Below, piece by piece: positions 17,805-32,653 of a stretch of 40,158 nt of DNA. The notes beneath the pieces are model-generated. The model had not been told where the DNA came from and did not search any database. It saw only the letters and a list, made by a program, of their open reading frames with translations. This stretch comes from Gammaproteobacteria bacterium (GTDB lineage Bacteria; Pseudomonadota; Gammaproteobacteria; Steroidobacterales; Steroidobacteraceae), in contig RFOD01000020.1 of assembly GCA_009926865.1 (NCBI GenBank), positions 1 through 40,158 of the forward strand, in the 5' to 3' direction. Position numbers and translations under genes: made by a program. The first letter of the stretch is position 1. Every line of letters begins with the position of its first letter.

Positions 17805-18278
17805 ATGGAAAATCTGTCGGAGTACATCGTCAATCATCCGTGGCTGTCCAGCCTCACCGTGCTGGCTGCCGTGTTGGTGGCGGTCTTCGAAATCCGCAGT
17901 CGGCGCGATTCGGTCGGTGCGATTTCTGCGCAAGATCTGATTCGATTGCAAAATCAGGGCGCTCTGCTCATCGACTTACGCCAGCCCGCCGTATTCGAGC
18001 AAGGCCACATCAGTGGCGCACGCCGGATGGATTCCTCAGACATGCTGACCGCCGGTGAGCACCTTAAGAAATACAAGGAAAAGTCTCTGGTGGTGTATTG
18101 CGAATCGGGCTCAACGGGCGCTGCAGCCGTGCGCGTGTTGGCAGGCCAGGGCTTTACGCGCGCATTTAACCTACGCGGCGGCCTGGCAACCTGGCGTAGT
18201 GAAAATCTGCCGTTAGTGCAGGGAGAGGACAAAGCCAAAGGTCAAGATGGCAAGCGACAGAAAGGCGCGCGGGCATGA
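17805..18278 (+). CDS. Membrane-anchored rhodanese-like sulfurtransferase (YibN type)
   Basis: A 157-residue protein with one N-terminal membrane helix (residues about 13-29) and a single rhodanese domain. LLIDLRQPAVFEQGHISGA (55-72) is the family's first motif, and the active-site loop VYCESGSTG has the sulfur-carrying cysteine at 99. A basic tail ends the protein. The same N-terminal layout is seen in YibN. It would transfer sulfane sulfur or reduce thiols at the cytoplasmic face of the membrane. It overlaps grxC by 4 nt (ATGA) and heads the rhodanese-grxC-secB-gpsA block. No ribosome site is visible; see the -10 box immediately upstream. Confidence 0.92.
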   Translation: MENLSEYIVNHPWLSSLTVLAAVLVAVFEIRSRRDSVGAISAQDLIRLQNQGALLIDLRQPAVFEQGHISGARRMDSSDMLTAGEHLKKYKEKSLVVYCESGSTGAAAVRVLAGQGFTRAFNLRGGLATWRSENLPLVQGEDKAKGQDGKRQKGARA

Positions 18279-18577
18279 CGACTGCAGCAGCAGCGGCGGC
18301 GAGCGCCGCCTCGACGGTGGTGATGTATGCCACGGCATGGTGTCCGTATTGCGAGCGAGCGCGGCAGCTCCTGGATCGCAAACAAGTTAGCTTTCAGGAA
18401 ATCGACGTCGATCGCTCGCCAGAGCTTCGCGCCGAAATGATGACGCGTAGCGGCCGGCGTACGGTGCCGCAAATTTTCATCGGCGAGGTACACATCGGCG
18501 GATGTGACGATTTGTACGCGCTCGATACGGCCGGCGGCCTTGATCCGCTACTCAAAGAAATCCACACAGGAAAATGA
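18275..18577 (+). CDS. grxC: Glutaredoxin 3
   Basis: A 100-residue class I dithiol glutaredoxin that reduces disulfides using glutathione. The active site CPYC is at residues 23-26. The cis-proline segment RTVPQIFIGEVHIGGCDDL follows near residue 62 and gives the glutathione-binding TVP and GG(C)D motifs. It has an unusual alanine-rich N-terminal extension of about 12 residues (six alanines in a row) before the first strand VVMYATAW. Coupled to the rhodanese gene by an ATGA overlap and 3 nt before secB. Confidence 0.95.
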   Translation: MTTAAAAAASAASTVVMYATAWCPYCERARQLLDRKQVSFQEIDVDRSPELRAEMMTRSGRRTVPQIFIGEVHIGGCDDLYALDTAGGLDPLLKEIHTGK

Positions 18578-20637: not shown

Positions 20638-21618
20638 ATGAGCGCGCCTACTGTGTCCGACCGCCCTGGCATCGCACCCGAATCCGCGGGTACCCGTCTG
20701 CGCTATCGCTTTTTAGGAATGAATTTCGCGTCACCTATCGTCCTGCTTTCAGGCTGCGTGGGCTTTGGCGAGGAATACACCCGGATTGAGGGTTTCTCGA
20801 ACGCAGATTGCGGCGCCATTGTGCTCAAGGGCACCACACTTTCACCCCGTCTCGGGAACAAGCCGCACCGTGTTTATGAAACACCCATGGGTATGCTCAA
20901 TGCTATTGGTTTACAAAACCCGGGCGCTTCGCATGTCGTCGAACAGATCCTGCCCGCACTGGATTTCACTGAAAGCCATTTCATTGCAAATGTTTCAGGA
21001 TCCACGATCGAAGAATATGTCGAGGTGACTCGGATCTTTGATGACTCTCCCATTGATGCGATAGAGATCAATATCTCCTGCCCAAACGTGAAAGAAGGGG
21101 GCGTCGCCTTTGGAAACTACCCTGATATGTCGGCTCGAGTGGTGGCTGCCTGTCGCGCTGTAACGCGTAAACCGCTCATTACCAAATTATCCCCAAATCA
21201 AACCGATATCAAAGAAAACGCTAGATTGTGTATTGAGGCGGGTAGCGATGGGCTAGCGGTCATCAATACCGTCATGGGGATGGCGATCGATATCCATCAA
21301 CGACGTCCTATCATTGGTAATGTGCAGGGTGGACTCTCTGGGCCGGCGATCAAGCCCATTGCCTTGCTCAAAGTGCATCAGGTTTACGATGTTGCGCGTC
21401 GCCACAACGTACCCATCATCGGCCAGGGCGGTATCGTCACGGCAGAGGACGCTATCGAGTTTCTCATCGCCGGTGCAAGCGCCATTGGCGTGGGTACCTC
21501 GCTGTTTTATGACCCGATGAGCTGCAAAAAGATCAACGCAGGGATTGAGCAGTACCTGACTCAGCACGGTCTATCAAATATCAGCGAACTTGTGGGAACG
21601 CTGCAACTTAATAATTGA
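20638..21618 (+). CDS. pyrD: Dihydroorotate dehydrogenase, class 1B-like (PyrD)
   Basis: A 326-residue class 1 type dihydroorotate dehydrogenase, a cytosolic FMN enzyme for the fourth step of pyrimidine synthesis. It contains SPIVLLSGCVGFGEEY near residue 32, the loop NAIGLQNPGASH near 90, and the active-site INISCPNVKEGG with C148, a cysteine base being diagnostic of class 1 (class 2 uses serine). NVQGGLSGPAIKPIALLKV and IIGQGGIVTAEDAIEFLIAGASAIGVGTSLFYDP (the phosphate-binding FMN site) follow. It lacks the membrane-anchoring N-terminal helix of class 2 enzymes. Class 1B needs the iron-sulfur/FAD partner PyrK, not found in this window. The 3' end overlaps malQ by 11 nt. A related pyrimidine-degrading dehydrogenase (PreA-like) is less likely. 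Confidence 0.85.
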   Translation: MSAPTVSDRPGIAPESAGTRLRYRFLGMNFASPIVLLSGCVGFGEEYTRIEGFSNADCGAIVLKGTTLSPRLGNKPHRVYETPMGMLNAIGLQNPGASHVVEQILPALDFTESHFIANVSGSTIEEYVEVTRIFDDSPIDAIEINISCPNVKEGGVAFGNYPDMSARVVAACRAVTRKPLITKLSPNQTDIKENARLCIEAGSDGLAVINTVMGMAIDIHQRRPIIGNVQGGLSGPAIKPIALLKVHQVYDVARRHNVPIIGQGGIVTAEDAIEFLIAGASAIGVGTSLFYDPMSCKKINAGIEQYLTQHGLSNISELVGTLQLNN

Positions 21619-23116
21619 GTGGTGTGCCATCACGTCGATAGAGTCGACAAAGCGCTGCGAGGCGCTCAGCAGGCTCCGGCCCGAACTGCTCCCACGTAAA
21701 GCGCCACCGCCAGCAATGATCACCATGTCCGGGCACATTCATGCGATGGCTCGCATCTAGCCCGAGCACATCCTGTAGCGGATAAATCGCCGTATCAGCC
21801 ACACTTGCGCAAGCGAGACGAATCAAGCTCCAGTGAATCTCTTGGGGCTTTGCCCCCAGATAGTCACACACTCGACTTTGTTCCGCCGGGTCCAAGCTCT
21901 GCCACCAACCCACCGAGGTGTTGTTATCGTGCGTGCCGGTATACACGACGAGGTCTGAATGGTGATTATGCGGCAGGTACAAATTGCCACTGTCACCCCC
22001 AAAGGCGAATTGCAGCACCGCCATGCCCGGCAAATCAAAACGCCGCCTCAAACTCACGACATCGGGCGTAATAATCCCGAGATCCTCAGCGATGATCGGT
22101 AATGGTCCCAGCGCGCTTGCCAGCGCATCGAATAAGGCCGCACCCGGACCAAGTACCCACTCTCCTTTGAGCGCGGTCGCTTCATGCACTGGAATTCGCC
22201 AATGCGCAGCAAAGCCCCGAAAATGATCGATTCGCAACATATCGAACAATTGAAGACTACTGCGTACACGCTCAATCCACCATTGATAGCCCTCTTGCGC
22301 ATGGGTGCTCCAGCGGTAGAGGGGATTCCCCCAGCGCTGCCCGGTCGCACTAAAGTAATCAGGTGGAACACCGGCGACCGCCTCCGGTTTACCGGCTGCG
22401 TCTAATTCAAATAAATGTCGTTGCGCCCATACATCTGCACTTTGCAAGGCGACAAAAATAGGTGCATCGCCGATGACCTGTATCCCCTTTTCATTGGCAT
22501 AGCGACGAATCGATTGCCATTGCCGATAGAAATTCCATTGCCAAAATTTTTGTGCATCGATCGCGCTTTTAAAATGTCGGCGCGCGTCGGTGAGCGCTTG
22601 GGGCGTCCGCTGCGCAAGTCCATCTGGCCACTGCTGCCAACTGCGCGCTCCGTACGCTGTCTGCAAAGCCATGTATAGCGCGTAGTCCTCGAGCCAATGC
22701 ACTTGTTGCTCACAAAAATGCTGAAACTCCCCGCGTTCTCTAGCGCGCGCTTTGGCAAAAAAGCCTGCGGCGGCAGCGGCTAGACGCTGCTCACGCCAGG
22801 GCAGTACTTTTTCAAAGTGAATCGTCTTCGAGTCAAAACCAGCATCTGCCGGTAACTCATCGCGACTCAACCAGCCATGCTCGGCAAGCTCGTGTAAGTC
22901 GATCAACAAAGGATTACCGGCAAACGCCGAAGGGCTCATGTAAGGCGAGTATCCCGCACCGATATTCCCCAAAGGTAATACTTGCCAGAGCTTTTGACCC
23001 GCTGTCGCCAACCAATCAATGAAATGATAGCAGCTCGCTCCGAGATCCCCGCTTCCATGTGGGCCCGGTAAACTCGTGGGGTGCAACAAAATACCGCTCG
23101 CGCGTGGAAATTTCAT
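21608..23116 (-). CDS. malQ: 4-alpha-glucanotransferase
   Basis: A 502-residue GH77 amylomaltase that moves alpha-1,4-glucan segments between chains. It begins with RASGILLHPTSLPGPHGSGDLG and has the family sequences QVLPLGNIGAGYSPYMSPSAFAGNPLLIDL and IQVIGDAPIFVALQSADVW. The region MLRIDHFRGFAAHWRIP contains the nucleophile, PIIAEDLGIITPDV the acid/base, and VVYTGTHDNNTSVGWW the third catalytic aspartate. Length equals the short, plant/bacterial type without an N-terminal extension. It ends the glgP-glgB-glgX-malQ unit, with an ATGA overlap with glgX. It would process short glucans left by GlgP and GlgX. Confidence 0.96.
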   Translation of the reverse strand: MKFPRASGILLHPTSLPGPHGSGDLGASCYHFIDWLATAGQKLWQVLPLGNIGAGYSPYMSPSAFAGNPLLIDLHELAEHGWLSRDELPADAGFDSKTIHFEKVLPWREQRLAAAAAGFFAKARARERGEFQHFCEQQVHWLEDYALYMALQTAYGARSWQQWPDGLAQRTPQALTDARRHFKSAIDAQKFWQWNFYRQWQSIRRYANEKGIQVIGDAPIFVALQSADVWAQRHLFELDAAGKPEAVAGVPPDYFSATGQRWGNPLYRWSTHAQEGYQWWIERVRSSLQLFDMLRIDHFRGFAAHWRIPVHEATALKGEWVLGPGAALFDALASALGPLPIIAEDLGIITPDVVSLRRRFDLPGMAVLQFAFGGDSGNLYLPHNHHSDLVVYTGTHDNNTSVGWWQSLDPAEQSRVCDYLGAKPQEIHWSLIRLACASVADTAIYPLQDVLGLDASHRMNVPGHGDHCWRWRFTWEQFGPEPAERLAALCRLYRRDGTPLNY

Positions 23117-25194
23117 GACGGGAATCCATCACGCTTTCGACACAGCAACATCACGGCGTGACCTGGCAAATTGAGCGTGTTCGTCAACGATAAAGCGTCT
23201 CCGTGTCGATCGGATAACGCCCCACCCTTGTCATCGGTGCTATCTAGTAATAGTTGCCAATGGCCTGCAGGCAAAGAAAAGGGGCGTCTCGCCGCCTCGC
23301 CATTGACCAGTAGGAGCAAGGTCTCACCGGATCCCGTTTCATTGAGCAGGGCACCCAGACAACGATCTTCGGAGTGTTGCCACGCCTCACCTTCCAGGCG
23401 TTCGCCACTTGCAGACAACCAATCTAAATCGTGCTTGGCGTGTTCGCCTCTCACGCCCTGATACCAGTGATTGATAAACGGTTGGTACCGACGCCGAAGG
23501 GCGACCACATGTGAAGTAAAAGTAATCATCGCGGTGTCTGCGGCCGACCAGTCTAGCCAGCTCAGCGCATTATCCTGACAATACGCGTTGTTGTTACCGC
23601 GTTGAGTGTGGCCGAGCTCGCTCCCAGCCGCCAACATAGGGGTCCCTTGAGCTAGTAAACACGTGGCGAGCAGTGCCCGCTGCATACGCTGTCGAGCCAC
23701 GACGACTTCAAGATAGTCTGTCTCTCCCTCGACACCAAAATTACAGCTGAAATTCGCCGAATGCCCGTCACGGTTGTGCTCACCATTTAATTCATTGTGA
23801 CGCTGCTCATAGGTCACAAGATCTCGTAACGTGAAACCGTCATGCGAGCTCAGATAGGATACCGACTCGCTGGGCAAGCGATGCCCGCGCTGAAAAATAT
23901 CGGCCGAGGCGCATAGACGCTGAGCAAATTCACCGCGCGTCATATGGCCACAAAGCCAAAATCGTCGCATGGCATCACGGAATCGATCATTCCACTCCAA
24001 CCACCCCGCGGGAAAAGCGCCAAGCTGATACCCGTTAGCGCCCACATCCCACGGCTCGGCAATCAGTAACACGCTTGATAAAACGGGGTCTTGGGATATT
24101 GCCTGAAAAAAAGCGTGCCGAGACTCAAAACCATGATCCCCGCGAGCAAGGATAGGCGCAAGATCAAATCGAAATCCATCAACTCCCATTTCTTTGATCC
24201 AAAACCGAAGCACGTCCATGACAAACTGCAACACTCGGGGCTGGCGAGTATCGAGCGTATTACCGCAACCACTATCATTGACATACCGATCAGGCCAGTC
24301 GTGATCAAGTCGATACCAGCTCGCATTGTCGAGCCCCCGCCAGGAAAGTGTCGGCCCAGTGTGATCGGACTCGCAGGTATGATTTAAAACGATATCGAGG
24401 ATGACTTCGATGTTTGCTTGATGCAGAGCATCGACCATCGCTCGAAATTCATCTCGTACCGCACGTGCGTTATGTAGGTCATGGGGTGGCTTCCCGATCG
24501 CCTGCGCACGCTTGCTGGCGAGTCGTGGATCCGGGCAGAAAAACCCGAGCGTGTTGTAACCCCAATAATTGACAAGGCCCCGTTCAGAGAGGGCTCGCTC
24601 GCTCAAGACTTGTTGTACCGGTAACAAAGAAACGGTGGTCACGCCCAATTGCTTGAGATGACTGAGAGCGGCAGGCTGCGCCAGGGCGGCATAGCTACCG
24701 CGCAAGTCCGCCTCAATCGCCGTCATCTGCTGACTGAAGCCCTTTACGTGTAATTCATAGAGGATCCGAGATTCGCTCGGGATACGTGGCCGACGCGATG
24801 CATCGGGTGGTGGCTCAGAGGCAATGACACGCGCCTTTAAAGCCGGTGGCTCCGCTGAGCGCCATGAAAACTCGCCAACGATTTCTCGAGCATAGGGATC
24901 AAGCAATAAGCGCTCTGAGTCGAACCGATGTCCCTCGTGGGGTGCGTAAGGGCCCGATGCACGATAGGCGTATACCAACCCCGGTTGTGCGTTGGGCAAG
25001 AATCCGTGCCAAATGTTGGCAGTACGCCCGGGTAGGGGCTCCGACCACAGTAGCTCCTCGCCACGGTAATCGAACACACAGAGATCGATGGCATCCGCGT
25101 GCGCAGAGAAGACCGCGAAATTTACACCCTCGGCGCTGACGTTGGCGCCAAGTGGGTAGCCTGAGCCACGCTGTAAACGTTGAGCTTGGCTCAT
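23113..25194 (-). CDS. glgX: Glycogen debranching enzyme GlgX
   Basis: A 693-residue GH13 isoamylase-type enzyme that hydrolyses alpha-1,6 branches of phosphorylase-limit glycogen. An N-terminal CBM48 domain (GYPLGANVSAEGVNFAVFSAHA) precedes the catalytic barrel. The barrel contains GVDGFRFDLAPI with the nucleophile D344, LIAEPWDVG with the acid/base E380, and YLSSHDGFTLRDLV with D452. WGYNTLGFFCPDPR is also typical of the family. All three catalytic residues are present. It overlaps glgB and malQ by 4 nt each (ATGA), indicating tight co-translation. Confidence 0.96.
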   Translation of the reverse strand: MSQAQRLQRGSGYPLGANVSAEGVNFAVFSAHADAIDLCVFDYRGEELLWSEPLPGRTANIWHGFLPNAQPGLVYAYRASGPYAPHEGHRFDSERLLLDPYAREIVGEFSWRSAEPPALKARVIASEPPPDASRRPRIPSESRILYELHVKGFSQQMTAIEADLRGSYAALAQPAALSHLKQLGVTTVSLLPVQQVLSERALSERGLVNYWGYNTLGFFCPDPRLASKRAQAIGKPPHDLHNARAVRDEFRAMVDALHQANIEVILDIVLNHTCESDHTGPTLSWRGLDNASWYRLDHDWPDRYVNDSGCGNTLDTRQPRVLQFVMDVLRFWIKEMGVDGFRFDLAPILARGDHGFESRHAFFQAISQDPVLSSVLLIAEPWDVGANGYQLGAFPAGWLEWNDRFRDAMRRFWLCGHMTRGEFAQRLCASADIFQRGHRLPSESVSYLSSHDGFTLRDLVTYEQRHNELNGEHNRDGHSANFSCNFGVEGETDYLEVVVARQRMQRALLATCLLAQGTPMLAAGSELGHTQRGNNNAYCQDNALSWLDWSAADTAMITFTSHVVALRRRYQPFINHWYQGVRGEHAKHDLDWLSASGERLEGEAWQHSEDRCLGALLNETGSGETLLLLVNGEAARRPFSLPAGHWQLLLDSTDDKGGALSDRHGDALSLTNTLNLPGHAVMLLCRKRDGFPS

Positions 25195-27359
25195 AGATAT
25201 TCAAAGAAAACGGTTGCCAGCGGCGGAAGACGTAAGCACAGCGAGTAGTCTCGTCCGTGCCAACCGATCGCCTCGGTGGTGACCTCGACAAAGGGGTTAC
25301 CGACGTCGCTCCCCGCGTAATGGCGCGAATCCGTGTTTAAGCACTCTCGGTAACGACCGGGTCTTGAGACCCCCACCCGATACGCTTCATGAACCATTGG
25401 CGTGAAATTACAAACTACCAATACCTCACGATCGGGGTTACGCGCACGACGCAAAAAGCAAATCACAGAGTGATCGTGATCGGAGTGATCAATCCACTCA
25501 AAGCCATCCGGCTCGCTGTCTAATTGGTGCAAAGCCGGCATGGCTCGATACAGTCGGTTGAGGTCTTTAACGAGACGCTGTACACCGGCGTGATCAGGCT
25601 GATCCAAAAGCGCCCAATCTAGTTCGCAATCATGGTCCCATTCTCGTTCCTGGCCGAACTCGCAGCCCATGAAGAGAAGCTTCTTCCCGGGATGGGCATA
25701 CATAAAGCCGAGATAAGCTCGAAGATTGGCGAACCGTTGCCACCGGTCGCCCGGCATCTTACCGAGTAAGGATCCCTTGCCATGCACCACTTCATCATGC
25801 GAAATCGGTAATACAAAGTTTTCGCTGAAGGCATAGCACAAACCAAAGGTCAGCTCGTTTTGGTGATGTCGGCGATAAAGGGGATCACGCGAGATATAAC
25901 GAAGCGTGTCATTCATCCAGCCCATGTTCCACTTGTAGTGAAACCCCAGCCCGCCTGCATGGGTCGGTCGCGAGACTCCCTGCCATGCGGTGGACTCTTC
26001 GGCGATCGTCACTGCAGCGGCACGCTCTTGACCAATGATTTCGTTTAAACGCTGCAGGAAGTGTACAGCCTCTAAATTTTCCCGACCGCCGTGAACATTG
26101 GGTACCCAATCGCCCTCTCGACGGCTGTAATCTCGATACAGCATCGAGGCCACGGCATCGACGCGCAAGCCGTCAAAGCCATAACGTTCAAGCCAATAGA
26201 GCGCACTCCCGATCAAGAAATTTTTGACCTCTGCTCGGCCGAAGTTATAGATCAAGGTGTTCCAATCGCGGTGTAGCCCCTCGCGTGGATCAGCATGCTC
26301 ATAAAGGGCACTGCCATCAAACCGTCCTAAGCCATGCGAATCGCTTGGAAAGTGGGCGGGAACCCAGTCAAGCAAGACTCCTATTCCCGCCTGATGACAG
26401 CGGTTAACAAATTCCCGTAGTGCCGCCGCATCACCAAACCGCGCGGTTGGAGCGTACATACCGGTCGGCTGATAGCCCCACGACGCATCCAAGGGATGCT
26501 CTGTGACTGGCATCAGTTCGATATGTGTGAAGCCAAGCTCCTGCACATACGGGATGAGCTGATCGCCAAGCGCCTGCCACGACAAAAATGGCGACTCGCC
26601 CCATTGGCGACGCCAAGACCCCGGATGAACTTCATAAATACTGACGGGCGCATGGCGAGAGTTCGCCGCATGGCGATCGACAGATAACGCCACAGGGGGC
26701 GGTAAATCGGCCACGATGCTAGCGGTGGCGGGCCGTAATTCGCTACGAAAGGCATAGGGGTCGGCTTTTTGACTCCAGACCCGACCGGATGCGCCTAACA
26801 CGTCGTATTTGTAGCGTGCATCGATCGTGACGTGTGGCAGAAAAAGCTCAAATAAACCGGCGCTGTGCAAACGCCGCATTGGGTGACGGCGCGCATCCCA
26901 ATAATTGAAATCCCCGACTACGCTGACACGCAAGGCTTCAGGCGCCCAAACAATAAACCGTACCCCGTCGACACCTTCAATAGTTTGCCGATGTGCACCC
27001 AATATTTCGTAGGGACGCAAATGGGTCCCCTCGCGTAGTAGCCAGACATCTACTTCGCCGAGCGTACTATCAAAGCGGTAGGGGTCTTCTATTGTCTCCT
27101 GATGCCCATTGTCCCACTCGACCTGAAATACATATTTAGCCGGCAAGGGAGCGGCTAATAAGCCCTCAAAGAATCCTTGCTCATGAACGCGGGTGAGTGG
27201 CACAGACTGATCCCCAAGCCGCGCGTGGACAGTGCGTGCATTGGGCATGAACGCCCGTAGCCAGCGCCCTCCGCTGCCGTCAAAGTGAGGACCTAAAATA
27301 GCGAATGGATCGGCGTGATGGCCCTCGCAGATAGCCGCGATATCCTCAGCCGATCGCAT
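25191..27359 (-). CDS. glgB: 1,4-alpha-glucan branching enzyme GlgB
   Basis: A 722-residue GH13 branching enzyme close in length to E. coli GlgB (728). It has an N-terminal beta-sandwich domain, the CBM48 module beginning near EGVDGVRFIVWAPEALRVSVVGDFNYWD, and the barrel with YGFDGLRVDAVASMLYRDYSR (nucleophile D401), TIAEESTAW (acid/base E454) and PISHDEVVHGK (D522). GCEFGQEREW and the C-terminal sheet complete it. It introduces alpha-1,6 branches into glycogen. It starts 1 nt after the glgP stop and overlaps glgX by 4 nt. Confidence 0.97.
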   Translation of the reverse strand: MRSAEDIAAICEGHHADPFAILGPHFDGSGGRWLRAFMPNARTVHARLGDQSVPLTRVHEQGFFEGLLAAPLPAKYVFQVEWDNGHQETIEDPYRFDSTLGEVDVWLLREGTHLRPYEILGAHRQTIEGVDGVRFIVWAPEALRVSVVGDFNYWDARRHPMRRLHSAGLFELFLPHVTIDARYKYDVLGASGRVWSQKADPYAFRSELRPATASIVADLPPPVALSVDRHAANSRHAPVSIYEVHPGSWRRQWGESPFLSWQALGDQLIPYVQELGFTHIELMPVTEHPLDASWGYQPTGMYAPTARFGDAAALREFVNRCHQAGIGVLLDWVPAHFPSDSHGLGRFDGSALYEHADPREGLHRDWNTLIYNFGRAEVKNFLIGSALYWLERYGFDGLRVDAVASMLYRDYSRREGDWVPNVHGGRENLEAVHFLQRLNEIIGQERAAAVTIAEESTAWQGVSRPTHAGGLGFHYKWNMGWMNDTLRYISRDPLYRRHHQNELTFGLCYAFSENFVLPISHDEVVHGKGSLLGKMPGDRWQRFANLRAYLGFMYAHPGKKLLFMGCEFGQEREWDHDCELDWALLDQPDHAGVQRLVKDLNRLYRAMPALHQLDSEPDGFEWIDHSDHDHSVICFLRRARNPDREVLVVCNFTPMVHEAYRVGVSRPGRYRECLNTDSRHYAGSDVGNPFVEVTTEAIGWHGRDYSLCLRLPPLATVFFEYL

Positions 27360-27360
27360 G

Positions 27361-29757
27361 TCAGTATCGAGGCGACACGTGCCAGATGCGATCGGCGTAT
27401 TCGCGGATCGTGCGATCTGAGGAGAAGGCTCCCATCCCGGCTACGTTAAGTAAGGCCGACTGCCGCCACGCCGATGTGTCACGAAAGTGCTCATCAACCC
27501 GATGCTGTGCAGCGACGTAGGCCTGGAAGTCTGCCAATAAGAGATAATGGTCACCGCCCCAAAGTAAGGCATTGACGACTCCGCGATGACGCTGCGGATC
27601 AGACAGCGAAAAGCGCCCGCTCGCGATGGCATCGAGTACCTCTCGCAACGCCGTGTCGCTGGCATACAAACGCATGGGGTCATAGCCCTCGCGTCGTAAT
27701 GCTGCCACCTCCGGCGCGCGTAAGCCAAACGTAAAAATATGTTCGCTACCGACGTGTTCAGCAATTTCGATATTGGCGCCATCCTCAGTACCGATGGTCA
27801 ACGCCCCGTTGAGCGCGAGTTTCATGTTGCCCGTACCCGAGGCTTCGGTGCCGGCGGTCGAAATTTGTTCTGATAAATCTGCAGCAGGAATAATCAACTC
27901 AGCGACCGATACGCTGTAGTTGGGAACGAACAAGACTTGTAATCGCCCCTCGGCTCGAGGATCTGTGTTGATGACGGCGGCTACATCATGAATCAAACGA
28001 ATGATATCTTTGGCCATCTCATAAGAAGAAGCCGCCTTGCCGGCAAAGAATACCGTCCGGGGCACCCAGTCACCGTCCGGGTGTTCGCAGATCCGTTGAT
28101 AACGAGCGATGACATGTAAAAGATTCAGTAACTGGCGCTTGTATTCGTGGATTCGCTTGACTTGCACATCAAATAAACTGCTCGGATTTACCATGATACC
28201 GAGCTCGCGGCCTATCCAATTGGCGAGTCGCTCCTTGTTGTGAAGTTTGATGTCGCTAAAACGCTGCTGGACATCAGGATCATCCGCCTTTACGCGTAAG
28301 GTACTAATCGCATCCAAATTTTTTCGCCATTGTCGGCCTAACTGATCATCTAGCAATCCAGACAGCCCAGTATTTGCCTGCTGCAACCATCGCCGTGGTG
28401 TGATGCCGTTAGTCACGTTCGTGAAGCGCTCGGGCCATAGCGCAGCGAAATCCGCAAAAATGGTTTGCAACAGGAGATTGGAATGTAAGGCAGAGACGCC
28501 GTTGATTTTGTGGCTACCCACGATACACAAATGCGCCATGCGTACGCGTCGCTCGCCTTGCTCGTCGATCAATGACAGGCGTGCTAAGAAATCCAAATCT
28601 CCAGGTCGCACGTCAGCCGCGTGATCCAGAAGCTGCTGATTGATCTGGTAAATGATTTGCAAGTGTCGCGGCAGCACATGCTGCACAAGATCGACTGGCC
28701 AGGTCTCCAGCGCTTCGGGCATCAAAGTATGGTTGGTATACGAAAAGACTTGGCCACAGATCCGCCAAGCGACCTCCCAGTCGAAACAATGCTCGTCACA
28801 GAGCAAGCGCATCAGCTCTGGGATCGCGATAGCCGGATGCGTGTCGTTCAGGTGGATCGCAACATGCTCGGCGAGCGTATCTAAGCGGCCGTGCTCGCGT
28901 AGATGGCGGACCAGAATATCCTGTAGCGAAGCGGAGACGAAGAAATACTCCTGCCGTAAACGCAATTCGCGCCCAGCGGGGGTACTGTCGTTGGGGTACA
29001 GGACCCAGGAAATGTTTTCGTACTCGTTCTTAACGATCGCGGCCCGTGCGTAGTCACCACTATTGAAGGCATAGAGGTCAATCCGATCAGGAGCGGCTGC
29101 GCGCCAAAGTCGAAGCCGACTCACTGTCTCGACGCCTTGCCCCGGAATGATGAGATCGAATGCCTGCGCCCGAACCTCGCCCGCCGGCATCCAGCGCGAT
29201 TGCCCCTCATCTGTCTCCACTCGACCACCGAAAGACACCTGATAGTCAATTTCAGGCCGTGGGAATTCCCAGGGATTGCCCTCACTCAGCCACGGGTCGG
29301 GGTATTCGAGCTGCATTCCATCACGGATCGCTTGCGCAAACATGCCGTGCTCATAGCGAATCCCGTAACCCATGGAAGGAATCCCGAGGGTTGCCAGTGA
29401 ATCCAAAAAGCAGGCAGCCAAACGGCCGAGTCCGCCATTACCGAGACCCGGGTCCGGCTCTTGTTCCATGATGTCTTCGAGTGCGAGCGCGTGCTGCTGT
29501 AGCGCCTCGCGCGCACTCGGCGCCAGATCTAGCGCGTGTAGGGCATTACCGAGACTACGTCCGATCAAAAACTCCATCGACAAGTAATAAACTCGCCGCA
29601 CCTTTTCGGTGCAAAGCTCGCGCTCGCCAGCGAGTTGGCGTAGCGATAGCTGCTCGCGCGCCGCCTTGGCCGCAGCCCACCAAGCATCACGCGCACTGGC
29701 ATCAGCTGGCTCGACCCCCACTTCTGTACGCAGAATTCGCTCAATCTCGCTATTCAC
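27361..29757 (-). CDS. glgP: Glycogen/starch phosphorylase
   Basis: About 798 residues of a GT35 phosphorylase that releases glucose-1-phosphate from glycogen ends. YYLSMEFLIGRSLGNAL (near residue 55), EPDPGLGNGGLGRLAACFLDSLATL and VKRIHEYKRQLLNLLHV are family hallmarks. The pyridoxal-phosphate lysine is in EASGTGNMKLALNGALTIGT (K646). I chose a GTG start at 29755-29757 (reading MNSEIERIL) because GAGAGG lies just upstream; the longer frame begins with TTG at 29802. It is the first gene of the minus-strand glycogen unit, and glgC lies divergently about 175 bp away. Confidence 0.95.
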   Translation of the reverse strand: MNSEIERILRTEVGVEPADASARDAWWAAAKAAREQLSLRQLAGERELCTEKVRRVYYLSMEFLIGRSLGNALHALDLAPSAREALQQHALALEDIMEQEPDPGLGNGGLGRLAACFLDSLATLGIPSMGYGIRYEHGMFAQAIRDGMQLEYPDPWLSEGNPWEFPRPEIDYQVSFGGRVETDEGQSRWMPAGEVRAQAFDLIIPGQGVETVSRLRLWRAAAPDRIDLYAFNSGDYARAAIVKNEYENISWVLYPNDSTPAGRELRLRQEYFFVSASLQDILVRHLREHGRLDTLAEHVAIHLNDTHPAIAIPELMRLLCDEHCFDWEVAWRICGQVFSYTNHTLMPEALETWPVDLVQHVLPRHLQIIYQINQQLLDHAADVRPGDLDFLARLSLIDEQGERRVRMAHLCIVGSHKINGVSALHSNLLLQTIFADFAALWPERFTNVTNGITPRRWLQQANTGLSGLLDDQLGRQWRKNLDAISTLRVKADDPDVQQRFSDIKLHNKERLANWIGRELGIMVNPSSLFDVQVKRIHEYKRQLLNLLHVIARYQRICEHPDGDWVPRTVFFAGKAASSYEMAKDIIRLIHDVAAVINTDPRAEGRLQVLFVPNYSVSVAELIIPAADLSEQISTAGTEASGTGNMKLALNGALTIGTEDGANIEIAEHVGSEHIFTFGLRAPEVAALRREGYDPMRLYASDTALREVLDAIASGRFSLSDPQRHRGVVNALLWGGDHYLLLADFQAYVAAQHRVDEHFRDTSAWRQSALLNVAGMGAFSSDRTIREYADRIWHVSPRY

Positions 29758-29932
29758 TATCCTCTCACCCTTCACCGCAGCTGGCCGTATTTTCACGATC
29801 AAGAGGCGTCAAAAAAACGCCACAAAGATTCTTGCGCAGCGATCGCGATGAAAGATACTTTTCCGGTCGCTCGCTACGTTTATGATACCGAGGCTAGTCC
29901 CCCTTCGAAACGTTTACCTCGGGAGGTGACGT
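29758..29932. promoter_or_regulatory. Divergent control region between glgP and glgC
   Basis: This 175-bp gap should hold the promoters of both halves of the glycogen cluster. On the plus strand I see TTGCGC (from 29834) about 16 nt before GATACT, a mediocre sigma-70 pair, and a TATGAT hexamer near 29880-29885 with no clear -35. A short inverted repeat, GGCGT/ACGCC around an A-rich loop, lies at about 29805-29822. Just before glgC is a strong GGGAGGTGA ribosome site (29921-29929). No known regulator site is recognised. Confidence 0.4.
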
Positions 29933-31201
29933 GTGCTTCCGCACGAACTTGCTGTCAGTCTAGATCTGCCAAAACGGGCCATGGCGCTCGTGCTTGCCGG
30001 TGGTCGTGGCAGTCGCCTGCTTAATCTGACAGATCGGCGGGCTAAGCCTGCAGTGTATTTCGGCGGTAAATTTCGGATCATCGATTTCGCCTTATCCAAT
30101 TGCCTTAATTCTGGGATTCGCCGGATCGGCGTGCTGACGCAGTACAAAAGCCATAGTTTGATGCGACACATTCAGCGAGGCTGGGGCTTTCTGCGCGGCG
30201 AGCTCAATGAATTTGTCGACGTCATGCCGGCACAGCAACGCCTGAACGAGTCCAACTGGTATCAGGGCACCGCTGATGCGGTGCATCAAAGCCAGGACAT
30301 CATCGCCAGCTACCGACCGAAGTACTTGGTGATTCTCGCTGGCGATCACATCTATAAAATGAACTATGCATTAGCGCTAGCAGAGCATGCTGCACACGGC
30401 AAACCGTGTTCGGTCGCTTGCATAGAAGTTCCCCGACTCGATGCGCGTGGGTTCGGTGTCATGGCTGTGAACGAAGACAATCTAATCACCGCGTTCGAGG
30501 AAAAACCCCTAGATCCGCCGTGCCTGCCAGACAACCCTGACCGGGCGCTTGCCAGTATGGGTGTTTATATCTTTGATACGGACTATTTATTTAACGAATT
30601 ATCCTGCGATGCGGGTAATCCGGAATCTAGTCATGATTTCGGTAAAGATATCATTCCGCGTATCGTGGCACGCGGTGAAGCGATGGCCCATCGGTTTGAA
30701 CAAAGCGCGGTCGGCACACGTCTGGGCGAAGCGCCCTATTGGCGCGATGTTGGGACGATCGACGCCTACTGGGACGCCAACATTGATCTCACGGCGACCG
30801 ACCCATTGCTGAACTTATATGACGAACGATGGCCGATTTGGACTTATCAGCCACAACTACCGCCCGCCAAATTTGTGCATAACACTGAGGATCGTCGTGG
30901 TTTGGCTTTAGAATCTTTGGTCTCGGGAGGCTGTATTGTCTCCGGGCACGTCGAACGCTCCCTGATGTTTTCGGGCGTGCGAGTGCATTCGCATGCTGAG
31001 GTCCACTGGAGCGTCTTATTGCCCAACGTGCAGGTGGGCCGTGGTGCGAAAATCCGCCGAGCCATCATTGATCGCGGCTGCGTGATTCCAGATGGGATGG
31101 TGATCGGCGAAGACCCCGAACAGGACGGCGAGCGTTTCCTATGCACGGAGACTGGCATAACGCTCGTCACCCGGCAGATGATAGCTCGACTTACGGCATA
31201 A
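29933..31201 (+). CDS. glgC: Glucose-1-phosphate adenylyltransferase
   Basis: A 422-residue ADP-glucose pyrophosphorylase, the committed step of bacterial glycogen synthesis. The nucleotide-binding [29 protein letters not shown] is at about residues 20-48. [14 protein letters not shown] near 108, [11 protein letters not shown] near 135, FEEKPLDPP near 185 and [12 protein letters not shown] near 235 follow. The C-terminal third is the left-handed beta-helix ([21 protein letters not shown]). The start is GTG at 29933 with a strong GGGAGGTGA ribosome site. glgA follows after 7 nt. N-terminal residues [10 protein letters not shown] resemble the allosteric-site region, so fructose-1,6-bisphosphate-type regulation is plausible. 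Confidence 0.96.
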
Positions 31202-31208
31202 TTATCTC

Positions 31209-32653
31209 GTGCCTAAAAGCCGTTCTCTACGTGTGCTGCATGTGGCAGCCGAAATATATCCGTGGCTCAAAACCGGCGGGCTTGCTGATGTGGTCGCTGC
31301 GCTGCCCGTCGCGCAAGCGAACGCAGGCGCGGAGGTGCGACTCTTATTACCGGCGATGCCGGCGATCGCGGAGGCCGTAGTCGGTAAGCGCGCCATTTTT
31401 GACTGTGGCCCCTTTATGGGGGCAGGAAAAATCCGTGTCTGCCGCGGCCGGATGCGCGATAGCAACCTGTCGGTATATTTGCTGGAGGCGCCTTATCTAT
31501 ACACGAGGCCGGGTGGTCCGTATCAGGCCCCGAGTGGCCAAGACTGGCCCGACAACTTGCAAAGATTTGCGTTACTCAGCTGGGTCGCAGCACACCTAGC
31601 CGCCGGTGAAATTGATCCCAAATGGCAACCCGATATTACGCATGCTCATGACTGGCACGCGGGGCTCACGCCCGCCTACATGTCTCGCCATCCGCTTGAA
31701 AAAGCCAAGAGCGTGTTCACCATTCACAACCTCGCCTATCAGGGACGTTTTGCTGGAGTCAACCTGAGCGAGCTCGCGCTGCCGCAGGCTTGGATGGCTC
31801 CTGGCGCCGCACTCGAGTTTCACGGCGATCTGTCGTTTATGAAAGCGGGCCTCACTCTCGCTGACCATATCACCACGGTGAGCCCAAACTACGCCAAAGA
31901 AATCATGACGAACGAATTTGGTGCTGGGCTGGACGGCGTGATCCGAGCGCGTGAGTCATCCCTAACCGGTATCCTAAATGGCGTGGACTATTCCTTGTGG
32001 GACCCCGGTACGGATCCCCGACTTATCGAAAACTTTGACTCTCAGCAATTTGACGGTAAAGCGCACTGCAAAGCACAGTTGCAAGAGCTGAATGGGCTCA
32101 CAACGGATTCTGCGATTCCGGTATTTGGGGTCGTCAGTCGTATGACCCAGCAGAAAGGTCTGGACCTATTGCTACGCACCATGGATGCGCTACTGCAAAA
32201 AGGAGCGCAGCTTGTCCTACTTGGGAGTGGCGATCGAGATTTGGAACAAGCATTCACGCACTGGGCCGAGCAGCATCCGCGCGCGGTCGGCGTGCGCCTA
32301 GGCTATGACGAAGATTATGCACATCGCTTGATCGCTGGTGCCGATGCGCTGATTCGCGGTTTGAGCCCTGCGGCCTGACCCAGCTTTATGCGATGCGTTA
32401 CGGCACCTTACCCGTGGTTCGCGCGGTCGGCGGACTCGCTGATACGGTCAATGAAGAAACCGGTTTTTGTTTTCGTGGGGGCGATACCGAACTCGCAGAC
32501 GTGCTGGCCCGCACACTCGCTTGCTATCGGCAACCGTCTCGCTGGCAAAAGAAAAAGCAGGCTGCGATGAGTCGCGATTTCAGTTGGTCAGTCGCCGCAA
32601 CAGAGTATCTGCAGCTTTACAGCGAACTTCGCCACCCGCGCAGCGAAGCCTGA
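31209..32653 (+). pseudogene. glgA: Glycogen synthase GlgA, frameshifted
   Basis: A GT5 ADP-glucose:glycogen glucosyltransferase split into two frames. Part one (GTG 31209 to TGA 32378, 389 residues) has the N-terminal KTGGLADV motif (residues 21-28, ADP-glucose site), ITHAHDWHAGL near 147, VFTIHNLAYQG near 172 and FGVVSRMTQQKGLDLL near 302. It reads correctly to GADALI, where the family expects PSRFEPCGLTQLY. Here ATT (32352-32354) is followed by CGCGG and then TTT GAG in another frame. The family needs nine nucleotides for PSR but only five are present. From 32360 the other frame reads FEPCGLTQLYAMRYGTLPVV and on to a normal end at 32653. The catalytic glutamate region and C-terminal domain are therefore out of frame. 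It is a pseudogene if the sequence is right. Confidence 0.9.

Follow-up and report, generated by a model that had tools for sequence, protein, structure and literature searches.

A frameshifted glgA within an otherwise intact glycogen gene set of a Steroidobacteraceae draft genome: recent deletion or assembly error

The glycogen synthases of the GT5 type (GlgA) are described by the family profile TIGR02095 and by the solved structures 2qzs, whose chain A we take to be E. coli GlgA, and 1rzu, presumably the GT5 glycogen synthase of Agrobacterium. For Glu377 of E. coli GlgA, an ionic interaction with phosphate is listed in the part of the source drawn on here, the first column of its table being taken as E. 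coli GlgA (PMC6210743). The second relevant class of described systems is that of frameshift pseudogenes, and Cooley and Wright (2024) report that a putative pseudogene is in many cases an assembly error (PMC11017572). The glgA gene described below is interrupted at the start of the most conserved motif of the enzyme, and this break is really present in the sequence as given.

The stretch of DNA that was analyzed (the window) is an entire contig (C15) of 40,158 bases. It belongs to a draft genome of 103 contigs and 2.32 Mb, which is 96.87% complete and 2.65% contaminated and some of whose contigs measure about 1 kb. Four genes of the glycogen locus, malQ, glgX, glgB and glgP, lie on the minus strand, whereas glgC and glgA occupy the plus strand; next comes a convergent gene whose sequence we take to be that of ntrC. 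According to their family profiles, GlgC, GlgB, GlgP, GlgX and MalQ are all full length (Table 1), in agreement with the first-pass annotation, which had regarded the other glycogen genes as intact. Of the 13 relatives' loci searched, 7 show the order glgC-glgA-(convergent) ntrC, and because this gene order recurs, the contig is considered to be without a gross mis-join.

Table 1. Features of the glycogen locus and of the interrupted glgA gene, in coordinates of the window.
Feature	Coordinates	Strand	Evidence
malQ, 4-alpha-glucanotransferase, full length	21608..23116	-	NF011080, 728.3 bits, profile 1-495 of 496
glgX, debranching enzyme, full length	23113..25194	-	TIGR02100, 830.9 bits, profile 2-686 of 688
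glgB, branching enzyme, full length	25191..27359	-	TIGR01515, 935.5 bits, profile 1-605 of 607
glgP, glycogen phosphorylase, full length	27361..29802	-	TIGR02093, 1112.9 bits, profile 5-804 of 804
glgC, ADP-glucose pyrophosphorylase, full length	29933..31201	+	TIGR02091, 491.8 bits, profile 2-363 of 364
glgA N-terminal piece (GT5 starch-synthase domain and part of second domain), GTG start	31209..32354	+	TIGR02095 profile 2-373, NF001899, PF08323
Break: Ile codon 32352-32354, five nt 32355-32359, other-frame Phe codon 32360-32362	32352..32362	+	
Out-of-frame tail of glgA N piece, TGA 32376-32378	32355..32378	+	Family matches stop by residue 383
glgA C-terminal piece, -1 frame (SRFEPCG... to TGA 32651-32653)	32354..32653	+	TIGR02095 profile 376-477; normal codon usage

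The initial description of a GlgA frame that is intact up to GADALI, with the correct sequence continuing to the C-terminus in another frame, holds in both parts. The N-terminal frame is open from 31209, and GlgA homology within it ends at the Ile of GADALI (32352-32354), which corresponds to profile position 373. Homology restarts in the -1 frame at a Ser (32354-32356; profile position 376), from where the GlgA sequence reads SRFEPCGLTQLYAMRYG... down to its TGA at 32651-32653. Since the frame of the C piece is open from 32309, positions 32309 to 32378 are open in both frames. At the break, two distinct TIGR02095 matches meet, one covering profile positions 2-373 (392 bits, E = 1.5e-117) and the other 373-477 (119 bits, E = 2.5e-34), both far beyond chance, and the N piece contains the PF08323 starch-synthase catalytic domain (242.4 bits). 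The GlgA profile as a whole is spread over two frames, the first of which is closed by the TGA at 32376-32378. Translation of the N frame yields a product of 389 residues that stops shortly past GADALI, so that SRFEPCG, with the position of E. coli Glu377, and everything downstream are missing from it; a translated product with an intact PSRFEPCG-type motif and the Glu377 position is absent.

The size of the gap differs from the original estimate of a four-nucleotide deletion, which counted five nucleotides in place of the nine encoding PSR. In all 40 aligned copies from relatives, four residues (ending P-S-x) lie between the matching Ile and the F/Y/H/Q of xEPxG, so that 12 nucleotides are expected where five (32355-32359) are present, and glgA is seven nucleotides short, at the cost of two residues and the frame. 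The TIGR02095 profile and the solved chain 2qzs_A, on which residue 371 matches the end of the N piece and residue 374 the start of the C piece, give the same count. Comparison with relatives, proposed earlier as a way to recognize missing bases, revealed a loss, although of seven rather than four bases. The Pro-Ser of the motif is kept in 40/40 copies; in the window, two residues are missing at this place. These 40 copies, picked for a long locus, represent 38 sequences from 36 genomes plus two from further records; fragments and extra copies were left out (e.g. G005, G012, G027, G036, G037, G038, G042, G052, G053, G056 and the second G043 copy).

On balance we lean, at slightly better than an even chance, towards a very recent loss-of-function deletion of glgA. 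The gene would be an ordinary GT5 glycogen synthase with a recent inactivating deletion of seven nucleotides where its most conserved motif begins, and this deletion would reside in the DNA of the cell and not just in the assembly. If so, the cell would be without glucan elongation from ADP-glucose by the GlgA route. The demonstrated elements of this reading are the break, its size, the lack of decay and the failure of the searches of the assembly to reveal a second copy. The age of the break can be judged from the C piece, which is free of stops. Its mean identity minus that of the N piece is -0.035, within the range of -0.109 to -0.008 seen for 12 other intact sequences. Its codon usage in the -1 frame comes to 0.090 per codon, compared with 0.049-0.127 for 16 other genes of the window and with -0.013 and 0.024 for the wrong frames of the same piece. 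Judged by these measures, the C piece appears undecayed, which, together with the intact companion genes, fits a recent inactivation. In addition, base-calling errors less typically take the form of a clean loss of seven bases without any N.

A true deletion has to be weighed against the behavior of the pathway in the genus. Three genomes of the same genus (G002, G016 and G018), which are only 81-86% complete, have no glgA (E <= 1e-20) and no glgC or glgB (E <= 1e-30), while in G008 (87% complete) the glgB match alone is absent. The joint absence of the three genes suggests that the pathway was lost as a set in G002, G016 and G018, and pathway loss, where seen, thus mostly affects the whole set. 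A lone broken glgA is unusual in this light and counts against a true deletion. Taken together with the undecayed C piece and the full-length companion genes, this pattern implies that the deletion is either very young or not real. Also counted against a true deletion are the distance of the nearest N piece of glgA among the 24 genus genomes (61% identical) and the breaks in the same motif region elsewhere that are described below. No second genome of the species, and no close relative, was found among these 24 genomes.

The alternative that survives best, with a probability that we place somewhat short of even, is that the glgA of the organism is intact and the contig is wrong at this position, for instance due to low coverage or a strain mixture at a conserved stretch. 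The undecayed C piece and the intact companion genes fit this explanation as well, as does a draft assembly of 103 contigs, some of about 1 kb, and assembly errors account for many putative pseudogenes according to the study cited above (PMC11017572). Across the family, 190 of 217 genomes contain a glgA match (E <= 1e-20). In 12 of the 190, the source genome (G000) included, the best match is weaker than 1e-130. For 10 of the other 11, the break coincides with a contig end or an N run (G005, G012, G030, G071, G090, G092, G106, G116, G122 and G123), and the eleventh (G187) has one open frame matched in two stretches. The best matches of the remaining 178 genomes have E-values of about 1e-137 or better, from which full length is inferred for part of them. 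Among the family matches listed, the source genome is the only one with an internal break of glgA, which favors an error in the contig. Furthermore, a manual count placed the break within profile positions 378-410 in 4 of 14 genomes with a fragmentary glgA (G021, G071, G089 and G122), a clustering with a binomial P of 0.013 when calculated post hoc with one break per genome. This hints that the conserved motif stretch tangles metagenome assembly.

The breaks within profile positions 378-410 were located at contig ends or N runs in L100 (G122), L032 (G021), G089:C136/C289 and G071:C46/C367, the contig-end position of the cut being presumed for G021:C324 and G089:C289.

Three observations speak against an assembly error: the surrounding gene order is shared with 7 of the 13 relatives' loci, the window is free of N with no second copy found, and no other broken gene was detected among 66 loci covered to at least 90%. 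The latter result stems from a frameshift survey in which a sample of 343,120 bases of the assembly plus the window was compared with the ORFs of relatives. At a coverage of 90% or more of the relative's ORF, 66 loci matched, none of them glgA and 10 of them in the window; at 70% or more, there were 87 loci besides glgA (11 in the window). The true number of genes is somewhat lower, as at least one counted window locus (18149-18553, minus strand) is an opposite-strand shadow. Rampant frameshifts in the assembly were not seen in this sample, in which, one loosely flagged place in L114 aside, glgA alone stood broken. Two flagged places in the sample are opposite-strand shadows of intact genes, and the flagged window positions 30766-31191 reflect, in our reading, a relative's ORF that extends upstream across the glgC-glgA junction. 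With looser settings, the survey additionally pointed to places in L108, L114 and L116; those in L108 are suggested to be neighboring separate genes or shadows, and some of them, as well as L114 6020-6548, disappeared at a stricter E-value.

Recent inactivation and assembly error, two of the three explanations offered in the first-pass annotation, consequently survive; the third, the existence of another glgA, is unsupported. A search of the 96.87% complete assembly with the TIGR02095 profile returned no other match above the family cut-off, and a DNA search of the assembly, in which 12 of 20 first-look candidates were scored, returned one glgA match only. Likewise, a 2.8-kb stretch around the junction has a single match in the assembly. 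A protein encoded on contig C93 was considered as a second GlgA and rejected, as it scores 37.1 bits to GlgA and 77.7 bits to GlgM and its translation looks like that of a GT4-type glycosyltransferase. The alternative GlgE/GlgM pathway could not be recognized in the genome either: the GlgE N/S domain (PF11896) has no match, with a positive control in Corynebacterium glutamicum, and the best TIGR02149 (GlgM) match, again C93, reaches 77.7 bits against a cut-off of 302.4.

If the deletion is a true one, it may be asked what would remain of the pathway. One scenario, which appears quite unlikely, is a lineage that has just lost its sole glycogen synthase and has kept ADP-glucose synthesis, branching, debranching, phosphorylase and amylomaltase, with MalQ and GlgB producing any glucan from maltodextrins that are imported or recycled. 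It is similarly improbable, and slightly more so, that the broken glgA is tolerated because another enzyme makes glucan, either one encoded by a second glgA in the 3% of the genome that the assembly lacks or MalQ, working with GlgB on maltodextrins. MalQ and GlgB are intact in the source genome, two of the 24 genus genomes (G004 and G008) have two glgA copies, and PMC10395257, in the part considered here, is cited in support; against this stand the lack of a second glgA match in the assembly, the missing GlgE match and the low GlgM-type score. With about 3% of the genome missing and two glgA copies in 2/24 genus genomes, a second copy may have been missed, but this is unlikely.

The two glgA copies of G004 (L012 and L087) and of G008 (L007 and L088) are distinct, with one copy about 60% identical to the N piece of the window and one of a second type (47%). 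In G004, a glgC lies beside each glgA copy. In G008, glgC was found beside the second glgA only, and the contig of the first copy ends close by.

That programmed or fortuitous -1 frameshifting joins both frames into a working enzyme is highly improbable and programmed frameshifting is rejected, for although the overlap of the frames would permit such a shift in principle, as had been pointed out, positions 32300-32380 hold no in-frame X XXY YYZ heptamer (the best site agrees at 3/6 letters after the slip), which confirms the earlier remark that a standard slippery site is lacking, any -1 product would still be short by two residues, not one as previously stated, where Pro-Ser is conserved in 40/40 relatives' copies, and the split-frame arrangement, which in relatives might have encoded one active protein, occurs in 0/40 of them. 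Re-initiation at the C-frame ATG at 32393, just past the TGA at 32376-32378, is likewise rejected, since its product would begin after SRFEPCG and neither piece would hold the motif. The allele is therefore judged to be inactive, as far as can be predicted from sequence.

If the break is real, the source genome represents one natural glgA knock-out within an otherwise intact glycogen gene set; if it is an artefact, it serves as a reminder that a one-gene frameshift in a draft genome does not equal pathway loss. The significance of the finding is little in either case. In comparison with the GT5 GlgA enzymes (TIGR02095; 2qzs, 1rzu), the two pieces match nearly the whole length of the family, in order, on one strand and beside glgC. 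The window gene differs from these enzymes in that it is not one open frame; two residues are gone where SRFEPCG begins, and the reading frame switches there. With frameshift pseudogenes, whether true or assembly-made, it shares one small out-of-frame deletion in a gene that is otherwise normal (PMC11017572). Homology continues past the break, the copies of 40/40 relatives read through it, and no feature sets the window glgA apart from this class. Whether true or artefactual, the frameshift is an ordinary one in an ordinary gene, and no new mechanism is needed to explain it.
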